Shown one piece after another: positions 1,562 through 6,214 of a stretch of 41,534 bases of DNA. Origin of the DNA: Betaproteobacteria bacterium (lineage in GTDB: Bacteria > Pseudomonadota > Gammaproteobacteria > Burkholderiales > Burkholderiaceae); contig CANCIL010000004.1 in the NCBI GenBank assembly GCA_947378095.1, positions 1 through 41,534 on the forward strand. Reading direction: 5' to 3'. Position numbers and translations under genes: made by a program. The notes below the pieces were generated by a model. It was not told the DNA's origin, did no database searches, and worked only from the letters and a program-made list of their open reading frames with translations. Numbering within the stretch: the first letter of the stretch is position 1; every line of letters starts with the position of its first letter.

Positions 1562-1996
1562 TTAAGAGGGCTGAATTCTGGAAGATCTAAGGCTCCATTT
1601 CATAAAAACATGAATCATGAAGATCGCAAAAAAGACTAAGCCAGTAAGCCAGTGAAACTGGATGGTGGTTTCACGAAGCTCAGCAGGACCGTAATACAGC
1701 ATTCCGCCAGTAATGACTAGAGTTAATAGAAAACCGAGTTGGGTAAATCCACTAAAGTACTTTCTTTTTGATTGAAGCCCCGCTTTGAGGTGAAAGGGCA
1801 ATACCGATCCTAGGGCGATGCTTGCTAACATCGCTGAAAGACCATGGCTTGCCAACACTAGATGATTGCCCAGGAGGGCACGCTCAATCTGAAATTCATG
1901 ACCCACTAGGTAGGCGCTTCCTGTTGCTGAACAGGTCAACATACCTGCAATCACAAAAGTGCGCTGCCAGGCCGGCATTTTTCCTAGTTGTCTCAT
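1562..1996 (-). CDS. Small multi-TM membrane protein, possibly cytochrome b/DUF4405-like
   Basis: ORF runs to 2038, but the likely start is the ATG at 1996 in an ATGA overlap with the apbE stop; several TM helices with histidines (NHLVLASHG; FHWLTGLVFFAIFMIH). Confidence 0.65.
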   Translation of the reverse strand: MRQLGKMPAWQRTFVIAGMLTCSATGSAYLVGHEFQIERALLGNHLVLASHGLSAMLASIALGSVLPFHLKAGLQSKRKYFSGFTQLGFLLTLVITGGMLYYGPAELRETTIQFHWLTGLVFFAIFMIHVFMKWSLRSSRIQPS

Positions 1997-2814
1997 AAGG
2001 TGATTTCGATTGCTCGTGCACCGTAACGGGCAAAACAAGGATGGTGCTGTTGTCTTGAGAGTGCTAATACCTTTGTTAGCGCATCAGCATATACGCACTC
2101 CTTAGCCAAAACCGAATAAGAACCAGAAAACTGCCTATACATACCAGCACTTGTTTGTGCAAGGGGATTAATGATGTAGCTTCCTTGTTGATCTCTTTTG
2201 GAAAAATACAAAGCACTTGTTGCGATCGCTCCATTAGATAGTGAGCCTACTTCAATTAAGTGCCTTGGTAATTGGGGGTTGCGAAGATAAATCGTTTGGG
2301 GCTGATTTCCAAAGACTCGCAAATCGCCACCAGCATTTACAGTCCCACCGCTTACGCCTTCTGCGATCAGTGCTTTAACTGCCTCATCTACTGCAAAGCC
2401 TTTGGCAATTCCGCCCAGATCAAGGCAGATTGGACGTATTGAGCTAACTCTGTCATGGTCAATAAAGTAGAGATCTTCAATTCCGCCAATGTCATAACTT
2501 GAGATATCGATATGGCTTGGCAATAAGCCTGCAGCAATGAGGCGATGGCCAATTCCGCAATTAAATAAACCACCGGAGTGAGTATGTAGATCTTGTGCAA
2601 TTCTGAGTATGCGGGCGGTCCATGGATGAATTCGGATCGACTTGCAATGTACTCGCGCATTAATCATGGAGAGCTCACTCTGAGAGTCATGAAAGCTCAT
2701 TAGTTGCTGGACTTTTTCTATTTGATCAAAGGCGTATTGGATTGCCTTATCTCCGTTTTGATCCTCGATCGATATCTCTACATAGGTTCCCAGCAGGGGC
2801 TTGCAGCGTCTCAT
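1993..2814 (-). CDS. apbE: FAD:protein FMN transferase (ApbE family)
   Basis: MGTYVEI-like N-terminus (LLGTYVEISIED), LDLGGIAKGFAVDEA, NAGGDLRVFG, ADALTKVL motifs. Confidence 0.9.
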   Translation of the reverse strand: MRRCKPLLGTYVEISIEDQNGDKAIQYAFDQIEKVQQLMSFHDSQSELSMINARVHCKSIRIHPWTARILRIAQDLHTHSGGLFNCGIGHRLIAAGLLPSHIDISSYDIGGIEDLYFIDHDRVSSIRPICLDLGGIAKGFAVDEAVKALIAEGVSGGTVNAGGDLRVFGNQPQTIYLRNPQLPRHLIEVGSLSNGAIATSALYFSKRDQQGSYIINPLAQTSAGMYRQFSGSYSVLAKECVYADALTKVLALSRQQHHPCFARYGARAIEITL

Positions 2815-3368
2815 TTTTTACTTTGAACTAGGGGATGCTTGAGAGTTAACTCATACAAAACTGCAACCCGCTTCACGCCATCGCTAATATGTTTACATGA
2901 CAGGGTGGCGCCCCCAATGTTTTGAATATCTTGATTGAGCTTGATTGGATCACTGGCATTTTTGCCAACAAATTGTTTTCGCCATTGAGCTTCTGCTACT
3001 TCGTAGCCATAAGACTCAACATATTCTAGGATTTCAATTCCAGTAATGTTGCCGCTAGGGTTGAGCCCTACGGCATACGTAATCATTTCATGTTTACCTA
3101 CTACTTCATCGACGATAAACCAGCCCCCATCACTGGTTTTCCAAATTCGATCTCCTTGAAAGGGGTGGCGAATACTTGAAGCAATTCGCATCTTTTCCTG
3201 AAGATCGTCTGTAATAATGATCGGCATTTTGCTCAGCTGCTTATTAGGCATCAGTATTTTTTGTGCCTGCTCTATCGAAAGATAGATTTTGGCTTGAGCA
3301 ATCATCGGTGAGCTGATCATGGCTAAGCCTGCAATTACCAGTGGGTGAGGTTTCCAGTTCATCGTCAA
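2811..3368 (-). CDS. FMN-binding domain protein, probable exported flavinylated carrier
   Basis: N-terminal signal-like segment; GLNPSGNITGIEILEYVESYG...; IGGATLSCKHISDGV resembles the (S/T)GAT flavinylation motif; ATGA overlap with apbE. Confidence 0.85.
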   Translation of the reverse strand: MTMNWKPHPLVIAGLAMISSPMIAQAKIYLSIEQAQKILMPNKQLSKMPIIITDDLQEKMRIASSIRHPFQGDRIWKTSDGGWFIVDEVVGKHEMITYAVGLNPSGNITGIEILEYVESYGYEVAEAQWRKQFVGKNASDPIKLNQDIQNIGGATLSCKHISDGVKRVAVLYELTLKHPLVQSKK

Positions 3369-3379
3369 TGTTCTGTTAC

Positions 3380-4294
3380 TTAACTTAAAGGGAATCCCAC
3401 TTTGAGAATGAATTCATTCACAGAATGACTATCCCAAACTCGAGCATTTGAGCACTCTGCTGTGCCGTCACCCATACAAGTATTGCCCTTTAATTGATAG
3501 CGCCATGCACCTGTGACCCACCAGTCCTTGCTTGCGTAATGAACATTAGGGCCGATAAAGGTGGCTTTTTGAACTTGGTTCTGCAGGTTGTAACTGGAGT
3601 AATCATTGTGAAGTCGGGCCTCTACGCCTGCTGACCACTTCGGTGCAAATCGATAACTTGCCCCTAACAAAATGTCGAGCATCGACTCAGGAACATTGCC
3701 ATTACCAACAAACTTCAATTGCTCGTTAGCAACAACGACGTTCCCAGCCAAGATTAGTCGATCATCAATAAAGTTTGATTGCAATAACAGACGTGCTTCA
3801 ATCTCATTTTTGTTTCTGCCTAATGTGGGCTCAAGATAAAGCCCCACCCCTACTGGAGAAGTCACTGGATTGGTGATTCGATAAATGGCCTCTAATGAGC
3901 CGCCTTCAATGCCACTTTTTCTGTAGGCGGTACTTGGATCGTGGCTTTCGGGGACGCCATAACCACCAGTGCAAGTAGCTAAGTCATCGCATGCTTCAGG
4001 ATTGGTGTAATTCTGATTGGCATTAGTGTAATAGGAGTTGATATAGCCCGCAATTTGTAAGTCATTGGTAAGGCCATATTCCAACTCAGTTCTTGCAGTC
4101 CAAGCTTCATAGGTGCCTGAGGCTTGCTGCTGATTGAGTTGTAGGCGTTGTTCAAATTCAAGACTTCCTTTGGGCTGAAGATCTAGCGTGTAGATCCAGC
4201 CAAAGACACCTTCGCCAGCATGGGCGATGGGGCTTGATAAAAGAGTGGCAACACAAAGACTAGTGGCAAGTGGCTTTTTGAAAGTAAATGTCAT
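3380..4294 (-). CDS. Outer-membrane/beta-barrel-like protein (DUF6662-like)
   Basis: Signal peptide ending AHA; GEGVFGWIYTLDLQPKGSLEFEQ; alternating amphipathic strands; C-terminal LKVGFPLS. Confidence 0.6.
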   Translation of the reverse strand: MTFTFKKPLATSLCVATLLSSPIAHAGEGVFGWIYTLDLQPKGSLEFEQRLQLNQQQASGTYEAWTARTELEYGLTNDLQIAGYINSYYTNANQNYTNPEACDDLATCTGGYGVPESHDPSTAYRKSGIEGGSLEAIYRITNPVTSPVGVGLYLEPTLGRNKNEIEARLLLQSNFIDDRLILAGNVVVANEQLKFVGNGNVPESMLDILLGASYRFAPKWSAGVEARLHNDYSSYNLQNQVQKATFIGPNVHYASKDWWVTGAWRYQLKGNTCMGDGTAECSNARVWDSHSVNEFILKVGFPLS

Positions 4295-4322
4295 GTTTTA
4301 AGTGAGGTTGTTGGAAAATGTA

Positions 4323-4377
4323 ATTGAGAATGGTTCTCAATATAACATGTCAAATGAGAATAGTTCTCAATTGAGAA
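4323..4377. promoter_or_regulatory. Tandem Fur-box-like palindromes upstream of the flavin/OMP cluster
   Basis: ATTGAGAATGGTTCTCAAT (4323-4341) and AATGAGAATAGTTCTCAATT (4353-4372), then a further TGAGAA half-site (4372-4377); left half-sites are 30 bp apart. Confidence 0.75.
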
Positions 4378-4446: not shown

Positions 4447-4689
4447 ATGGATGCCCAAGCCTTAGAGAAACTGGTTTTAATGAAGATGCCTTTTGGTAAA
4501 TATGCCGGTCGAGCCCTGGCTGATTTGCCGGGGAATTATTTAGCTTGGTTTGCTCGTGAAGGATTTCCGCAGAGCGAACTTGGTCAACTATTGGAGTTGA
4601 TGCATACCCTTGACCACAATGGTCTACGCGGTTTGCTTGCGCCTATTCAACGGGCGCATGGCTTAGAGCAAAAATCGAAATTACTTTGA
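4447..4689 (+). CDS. DUF3820 family protein
   Basis: MPFGKYAGRALADLPGNYLAWFAREGFP is the DUF3820 signature. Confidence 0.85.
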   Translation: MDAQALEKLVLMKMPFGKYAGRALADLPGNYLAWFAREGFPQSELGQLLELMHTLDHNGLRGLLAPIQRAHGLEQKSKLL

Positions 4690-5694
4690 GCGGACGATAG
4701 CCGTCACCCTTGCGCGTTCATATTGAACGCCGGGAGATTCTGGTGGGCTGCTTTGACTTAACTCCGGCTGCATCTGTGTTTGCGCTTGAATCTGTGTGGC
4801 TAGCTTTTGTGCGAGGTCGCGATTGCGATCAAATTGAATTTGTATGCTTACAACCTTACCTTCCTTGATCTGGCTGATGAGTTCGCTCATCTTCTTGGGA
4901 GATTCATCATCAAAGAAGATGGGGTACCAAGCGCCAATTGGCGTGGCTTTAGGTTTGATATTGTCTGCCGCCTTTGCACTTGTAACCTGAGGCTTCAGGG
5001 GAAGATGAAAATCAATCCCGGTTTTTTGGACTAACTCCTCATAAGAAATTGGCGGACTCATATTTGCTTCATTGGTGTTTTCTATCCAATAGGCCCAAGC
5101 CAAATTTTTATTCGGGTCATAAACCAGTTTGAAGAGGTGGCTTGGAATCGTGACTCGTCCACTACCAATGCTTCCGGATTTACCAACAGACCCGGTGTAA
5201 ACATAAATATCACCGCTAGCGCGTTTGATGTACTGCCTGGTCGGCTCTTCCACATTCTTTGACCAGATACCCTGATTATTTTGTCTTGCCTGCGGCATCA
5301 TATTGGCCAGCGAAAAGGACTGAGCCATAGACTGATCGGTGTGCATATCCCCTGCGGGGGCATTGTGCCCCCTGTCATAGCCACTCCCGCGGTAGTCAGA
5401 GAGCTGAGCCCGTTCCGCAAAGGGCAGGCGGGCTTCTTCATAGAACTGGTTTGTCCTTTTGGGGTGAGGCGCTAAGAACTGTTTGTGGTGCAGCTTCTCA
5501 ACCGTGTAAATGGGTTTTTTATCCTGCGGCGAATAGTAGATGGCAAATCCATCAAAACAAAGATCACGTCCAGCTTGGTGGCTAGTAGGGATTTGTTGAT
5601 TGGGAAAGAGCTCTTTGCATTGATCAAATAAGGCAAATGCACTGAAGTGAGTCAGCAGCAGGGCTAAAAGCAGGACTTTGCGAATGGCTTTCAT
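4681..5694 (-). CDS. Exported DNA/RNA non-specific endonuclease (NucA-like)
   Basis: Signal peptide; YDRGHNAPAGDM (DRGH catalytic motif), SFSLANMMPQARQNNQGIW. Confidence 0.9.
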   Translation of the reverse strand: MKAIRKVLLLALLLTHFSAFALFDQCKELFPNQQIPTSHQAGRDLCFDGFAIYYSPQDKKPIYTVEKLHHKQFLAPHPKRTNQFYEEARLPFAERAQLSDYRGSGYDRGHNAPAGDMHTDQSMAQSFSLANMMPQARQNNQGIWSKNVEEPTRQYIKRASGDIYVYTGSVGKSGSIGSGRVTIPSHLFKLVYDPNKNLAWAYWIENTNEANMSPPISYEELVQKTGIDFHLPLKPQVTSAKAADNIKPKATPIGAWYPIFFDDESPKKMSELISQIKEGKVVSIQIQFDRNRDLAQKLATQIQAQTQMQPELSQSSPPESPGVQYERARVTAIVRSK

Positions 5695-5950
5695 AGCGTA
5701 TTAGTGTAGGGCTTACTCAGTTGCCAGAAAATTCTCCCATGTGATCTTATGAGTAAGGTTAGCTGCACGGCTAGTCCAAATTGAGGGGAGAAGCGAAGTC
5801 ATTGAGTCCATAAATTGGTCAGTAGAGGTCTATTTAGGTAAAGAAATGAAGTGATCTGTGAGTATGGGTCTGGCTACTACCGGTAGAAATAAGAAAGGCC
5901 GTAATCACTAGATGTATGGTTTTAACCAAGGAATTTTCATCCCGAATAGT

Positions 5951-5978
5951 AAAAAAGTCCGAATTTGGCCACTTTTTT
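5951..5978. terminator. Terminator-like hairpin in a large intergenic region
   Basis: AAAAAAGTCC-gaattt-GGccACTTTTTT imperfect stem with A/T tracts. Confidence 0.35.
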
Positions 5979-6111
5979 ATAGTGTGAAATTAGTGCCTCC
6001 TTACATCTTTAAGTCATTGATTTTGTTTAATAAAATACCGATGATTGTGCTCATATTCGGGATCTCCCTTAAATTCAGATCAAAAAGTAATGGAATTTAC
6101 TTTCTTTATTC

Positions 6112-6140
6112 TTGACTTGATATAAGAACCTTTTTAGGAT
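6112..6140 (+). promoter_or_regulatory. Candidate sigma70-type promoter for the transglycosylase gene
   Basis: TTGACT, 17-bp spacer, TAGGAT; about 75 bp upstream of the ORF. Confidence 0.4.
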
Positions 6141-6214
6141 GACCCATGTTTTTTACATATTGCACTGCAACATAAACACAGCTTCTGAGTTTTATCGAGC
6201 ATGGCAAAAAATGA

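Follow-up and report, generated by a model that had tools for sequence, protein, structure and literature searches.

A conserved flavin electron-transfer operon with tandem Fur-like boxes in a Polynucleobacter-like bacterium and its possible role in iron reduction

Whether a compact set of genes for an outer-membrane barrel, an FMN-binding protein, a flavin transferase and a small membrane protein serves the acquisition of iron, and by which route its electrons would then travel, is the question raised by the locus at 1562-4377 of a 41,534-nucleotide stretch of DNA, hereafter referred to as the window. An earlier note on this DNA had proposed a Fur-controlled, extracytosolic flavin electron-transfer module. 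The host genome is Polynucleobacter-like (129 contigs, 77% complete, with Polynucleobacter as its nearest named relatives), and the genus Polynucleobacter is highly abundant in fresh water.

Gene content, linkage and distribution

The four genes are co-directional on the minus strand, beginning with an outer-membrane beta-barrel of the DUF6662 family (3380-4294; Pfam score of 45.7 bits against a cut-off of 27, signal peptide), followed by a secreted FMN_bind protein (2811-3368; PF04205, 42.2 bits against 22, signal peptide), an ApbE flavin transferase (1993-2814; PF02424, 128.7 bits against 25.6, without signal peptide) and a DUF4405-like 4-helix membrane protein (1562-1996), predicted to be a di-heme cytochrome b. 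The FMN_bind gene starts at TTG 3368 or ATG 3362, and the conserved start of the membrane protein is the ATG at 1996, the listed open reading frame from TTG at 2038 being too long. ATGA overlaps at 2811-2814 (FMN_bind/ApbE) and 1993-1996 (ApbE/membrane protein) tie the last three genes together, and they are kept in 58/77 loci at the first junction and in 70/72 at the second. The description given in the earlier note, with four co-directional genes, a beta-barrel-like first product (now also predicted as a 12-strand barrel), ATGA overlaps linking the last three genes and a small His-containing membrane protein, is therefore borne out. Beside the operon copies, no second FMN_bind gene and no second ApbE gene was detected in the host genome. 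On the plus strand of the window, at 45-1496, an MBL-fold hydrolase, an ArsR regulator and a YgaP-like membrane protein are encoded in series; this row resembles a sulfide/persulfide detoxification operon and adjoins the flavin operon in many Polynucleobacter.

Synteny within Polynucleobacter is uninformative, because the flanking genes are conserved there too. Outside this genus, FMN_bind, ApbE and the membrane protein are kept together in 53/65 loci while their flanks change, and 31 of these 53 loci carry the DUF6662 barrel and 13 a coiled-coil barrel, with one locus counted under both, the barrel being the first gene in most loci. The conservation of the linkage, which the earlier note had put forward for checking, consequently extends far beyond the genus: the gene set stays together, with differing flanking genes, in Burkholderiales, Moraxellaceae, Lysobacterales and alphaproteobacteria. 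Among the hosts are Sheuella, Duganella, Pseudacidovorax, Polaromonas, Acinetobacter and Lysobacterales, as well as Sphingomonas, Novosphingobium, Bradyrhizobium, Methylocystis and Ideonella, in which the genes are plasmid-borne. When 369 genomes were drawn evenly from the class, 8 of them had a clear FMN_bind orthologue (E < 1e-50), and DUF6662 was found in 6, in 5 of which it lies beside the FMN_bind protein (Fisher 6e-9). At the order level an FMN_bind orthologue is present in 45/300 genomes and 22/134 genera, and at the genus level in 141/186 Polynucleobacter genomes. A search of viral contigs for a virus-borne relative found none. Large genes near the operons of some relatives were suspected to encode TonB receptors, but their N-termini do not appear receptor-like. 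Some relatives encode the FMN_bind and membrane proteins without an adjacent ApbE; these two proteins may constitute the functional core, or ApbE may act in trans.

Predicted redox components and outer-membrane partners

The small membrane protein is modeled as a 4-helix bundle (pLDDT 86.4) in which His 51, 69, 115 and 129 are paired on helices 2 and 4. These four residues are identical in all of the 118-120 homologues compared, among which overall identity falls to 23%, so that the bundle holds four conserved candidate heme ligands and the protein is predicted to be a di-heme cytochrome b. It is related to prokaryotic cytochrome b561 as well as to DUF4405 (PF14358); the window protein scores 17.6 bits against the DUF4405 cut-off of 26.7, and two homologues exceed this cut-off, with 28.7 and 28.9 bits. 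The fold of the model is matched best (TM 0.65, E 0.13) by the cytochrome b subunit of formate dehydrogenase-N, a resemblance that can only be taken as suggestive. It has been reported that purified DUF4405 binds heme b and that DUF4405 genes cluster with apbE (PMC11334425).

The FMN_bind protein carries the sequence NIGGATLS, with Thr155 in DIQNIGGATLSCKH as the predicted site of FMN attachment. The GAT-type flavinylation motif claimed by the earlier note is present, its GAT(L/M)S site being invariant in homologues, but it is a variant of the canonical D-x-x-[ST]-G-A-[ST]: the Asp at position -6 relative to the Thr is absent in 126/127 homologues and present in 1/127, and Gly replaces the usual Ser/Thr at -3 in 62/127, including most Polynucleobacter. 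An Asp is found at -8 in 120/127. Replacement of the Asp of the motif has been reported to have minor effects (PMC12052999). Membership of the RnfG or NqrC families was rejected, as the protein scores 23.8 against 102 bits and 17.9 against 144 bits, respectively. Its signal region keeps a W-x-P motif in 57/78 loci, which is odd for a cleaved signal peptide, and this region may be a retained anchor.

The flavin transferase, which matched 13 solved ApbE sequences, is itself divergent. Against the catalytic triad described for ApbE, Ser241-His257-Asp285 (PMC12052999), the Ser and Asp are kept and the position of the general-base His is variable. The metal-site Thr is replaced in all 120 readable motifs (Lys in 119, Arg in 1), unlike in the aligned solved ApbEs, which serve as the reference here, the loci of DUF2271 clusters being too few and their ApbE match partial; the operon ApbE accordingly lacks the full combination of triad and metal-site Thr. 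Nor does it have a secretion signal or lipoprotein signal such as extracytosolic ApbEs typically carry: none of 13 diverse members has a leader, and the proteins begin at the catalytic domain with MxRC(K/R)PLLGT or a similar sequence. Cytosolic ApbEs are known (PMC12052999). Flavinylation is not assured, given the missing signal peptide, the variable His and the Lys in place of the metal-site Thr; taken with the altered FMN_bind motif, these changes indicate joint divergence of enzyme and substrate. A leaderless ApbE of this kind may modify the exported protein prior to export, or may do so via an unrecognised export route.

The DUF6662 barrel is predicted by AlphaFold to have 12 strands (pLDDT 83.7), and its best Foldseek matches are FapF, a COG4313 channel and NanC, so that the model resembles a narrow channel. 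In many relatives the barrel slot is occupied by an unannotated, barrel-like protein of 430-550 aa with an N-terminal coiled coil, which is unrelated to the DUF6662 barrel and gave no reliable Pfam or NCBIfam match; an identity as an LbtU-like siderophore porin was considered and found no supporting match in these databases. A gene for a MauG-type di-heme cytochrome c peroxidase can precede operons of the coiled-coil type (4941-6194 in locus L208, 4732-5946 in L211 and 4186-5391 in L101).

Fur-like boxes and the iron-transport context

Two palindromes of 20 bp each, AAATGAGAATAGTTCTCAAT at 4352-4371 and AATTGAGAATGGTTCTCAAT at 4322-4341, lie 30 bp apart upstream of the barrel gene and are 90% identical. 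The pattern TTGAGAATRGTTCTCAA was matched 3 times, allowing at most 3 mismatches, against 0.30 expected, and no shuffle reached 3. With a box defined as a match at 12/14 consensus positions in the 200 bp preceding the barrel, at least one is present in 65/65 testable Polynucleobacter loci and two, spaced 27-30 bp, in 61/65, in agreement with the tandem Fur-box-like sites of the earlier note. In the Polynucleobacter loci, the regions preceding the genes for the endonuclease, ArsR, MBL and FMN_bind contained no box. The divergent gene QSregVF_b (4447-4689) shares the intergenic region with the boxes, which could for this reason also act on it.

The host genome has one Fur gene, and other close matches to TGAGAATNNTTCTCA lie upstream of a gene for an fbpA-like periplasmic binding protein and of a HiPIP gene, whose box is perfect. 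A 13/14 site is located 45 bp upstream of feoA (4625-4639 in locus L224); the feoAB box is present in 6/6 genomes examined (the host and five relatives), and in two of the relatives two boxes stand in tandem at a distance of 29 bp, as they do in front of the operon. As the motif is common to the operon, feoAB and the fbpA-like gene, which points to a shared regulon, it is read here as a putative Fur box; the operon has its promoter box in common with iron genes of the same genome, as would be expected of a member of the Fur regulon. Beyond the genus, single good boxes are present in Acinetobacter (TGATAATGATTATTA) and other Moraxellaceae, and boxes are weak or absent in several lineages, especially in those with the coiled-coil barrel (11/47 against about 1 expected).

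Iron transport in the genus offers a further line of evidence. Among 186 Polynucleobacter genomes, 74 have FeoB only, 69 FbpA only, 39 both and 4 neither; the presence of FeoB and that of the fbpA-like ferric transporter tend to be mutually exclusive, which amounts to a ferrous/ferric niche split in one genus. Published gene tables likewise show differences between strains in feoAB and Fe3+ ABC transport (PMC5018217). The module is present in 67/74 FeoB-only genomes, in 38/39 with both transporters and in 33/69 FbpA-only genomes, that is, in 105/113 genomes with FeoB against 36/73 without it (odds ratio 13.5, p 1.6e-11, the significance being overstated by the non-independence of species of one genus, with shared ancestry and incomplete genomes also affecting the counts). 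Its occurrence in 33/69 FbpA-only genomes means that the module is not strictly tied to FeoB. TonB receptors, found in 184/186 genomes, do not discriminate because they are near universal in the genus. For P. asymbioticus it has been described that FeoAB is present and an Fe(III) ABC transporter absent (PMC5018217, PMC6629928), that FeoAB is the only known iron uptake and that feoAB is about 4-fold up under presumed iron limitation (PMC6629928); the main texts of these papers name feoAB and not the genes of the operon. A literature search for expression data on FMN-binding/ApbE genes with Fur or iron limitation, and on DUF6662, returned none.

Fur control of a conserved flavin electron-transfer module is therefore well supported, on account of the tandem box, the boxes of feoAB and fbpA, the linkage, the four-His protein and the co-occurrence with FeoB. 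As to the Fur-controlled extracytosolic module of the earlier note, the conserved boxes, the linkage and the extracytosolic nature of the FMN protein and barrel agree with it, and the ApbE without a signal peptide does not.

Possible functions and relation to known systems

The reading that we consider probable is that the operon encodes a Fur-repressed assimilatory Fe(III) reductase, in which electrons would pass from quinol over heme b and FMN to Fe(III) and the product would feed FeoB. Under iron scarcity Fur would come off the tandem boxes, allowing expression of the four genes. With its four invariant His as ligands, the membrane protein would hold two b hemes and take electrons from the quinol pool, passing them to an FMN that, judging from the protein families, would be attached covalently at Thr155 by the operon's own ApbE. 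The reduced flavin would then reduce periplasmic Fe(III), free or weakly chelated, with the DUF6662 barrel either admitting the ferric source as a porin-like channel or docking the flavoprotein. The Fe(II) formed would be imported by FeoB, or handed on otherwise in species without it. The statement that P. asymbioticus is unable to use Fe(III) (PMC6629928) would count against a ferric reductase if that strain carries the operon.

Other uses of such a chain have been weighed. The flavin chain might spare iron rather than reduce it, replacing heme or Fe-S carriers such as HiPIP under iron shortage and serving a terminal reductase or peroxidase encoded elsewhere. The perfect Fur-like box of the HiPIP gene in the same genome is consistent with this, as are the opposite response of the HiPIP gene to that of feoAB in P. 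asymbioticus (PMC6629928), the known pattern of flavin/cytochrome substitution (PMC8238504) and the position of two homologous operons behind a CCP_MauG di-heme peroxidase gene and the presence, in a third, of an annotated cytochrome c peroxidase immediately before the barrel. However, the membrane protein would itself need hemes, and an iron-sparing role leaves both the FeoB association and a dedicated outer-membrane barrel unexplained; we regard it as unlikely. A redox module that acts in the periplasm on a substrate other than iron, placed under Fur in Polynucleobacter by chance, would account for the many other lineages that keep the genes without Fur-like boxes, but it sits poorly with a box pair in essentially every Polynucleobacter locus and with the single good boxes in Acinetobacter and other Moraxellaceae, and appears decidedly unlikely.

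It would be more improbable still that the operon performs flavin-based extracellular electron transfer, with the barrel carrying or docking the flavoprotein and electrons reaching surface Fe(III) or humics for respiration or iron release. A single FMN on a 185-residue protein cannot by itself span the outer membrane, Fur control points to assimilation, and the barrel is predicted to be 12-stranded and narrow, like the FapF or NanC channels and unlike the wide barrels of porin-cytochrome conduits. The place of the barrel as the first gene in most loci would fit such a role, as would the abundance of Polynucleobacter in humic lakes and the Mtr-like conduits that some of them possess (PMC6344600).

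Returning to assimilatory Fe(III) reduction, its interest lies in a gap in iron uptake, since work on Bradyrhizobium indicates that inorganic Fe(III) needs reduction before FeoAB by a reductase that is unknown (PMC10760861). A related cluster is present on a Bradyrhizobium plasmid. If the reading is true, a compact candidate under Fur control, whose occurrence among 186 genomes follows that of FeoB, would fill this gap, and flavinylation would be extended to operons of a new type and to a divergent subclass of ApbE. A much bolder version, to which we give little credence, would see in the operon the reductase that FeoB-dependent bacteria in general are missing for Fe(III), whether inorganic or bound to humics, with the barrel docking the flavoprotein, iron being reduced while crossing the outer membrane and the FMN being attached by the leaderless Lys-type ApbE subclass, possibly before export.

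In the literature searched, which included few subscription journals, no description was found of the operon composition, tandem boxes in common with feoAB, the FeoB co-occurrence, interchangeable barrel partners or a leaderless Lys-type ApbE. Several known systems nevertheless share parts of the design. The NqrC/RnfG subunits have the FMN_bind domain and GAT site in common with the operon, which has no Nqr/Rnf genes, and P19-FTR1 clusters with an FMN_bind protein are likewise proposed to act in iron assimilation (PMC8238504), whereas P19 and FTR1 are lacking here. The periplasmic ferric siderophore reductases FsrB/FoxB (COG3182) follow the same proposed model of periplasmic Fe(III) reduction and subsequent import by FeoB, but belong to different protein families, and inorganic Fe(III) does not require FsrB, an unknown reductase having been postulated for it (PMC10760861). 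PepSY-like clusters (DUF2271, DUF4198, PepSY, ApbE; PMC8238504) resemble the operon in being Fur-repressed, in combining ApbE with an extracytosolic flavoprotein and in their proposed iron reduction; the operon does not belong to them, having no PepSY, DUF2271 or DUF4198, and a search of the host genome for DUF2271 found none. DUF4405-cytochrome/ApbE clusters (PMC11334425, mSystems 2024), with Proteobacteria among their hosts, also bring apbE together with an extracytosolic flavoprotein and a small membrane cytochrome that has multiple His; their published examples often have a Flavodoxin_4 substrate and a 6-TM DUF4405, in contrast to the FMN_bind protein, four helices, barrel and Fur boxes of the operon. 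The earlier view that no established system has exactly this composition thus holds for the literature searched, but it needs to be qualified, as the design of ApbE, flavoprotein and DUF4405-type cytochrome was already published in 2024 (PMC11334425) and a connection of flavinylation with Fur and iron had been drawn in 2021 from PepSY-type clusters (PMC8238504).
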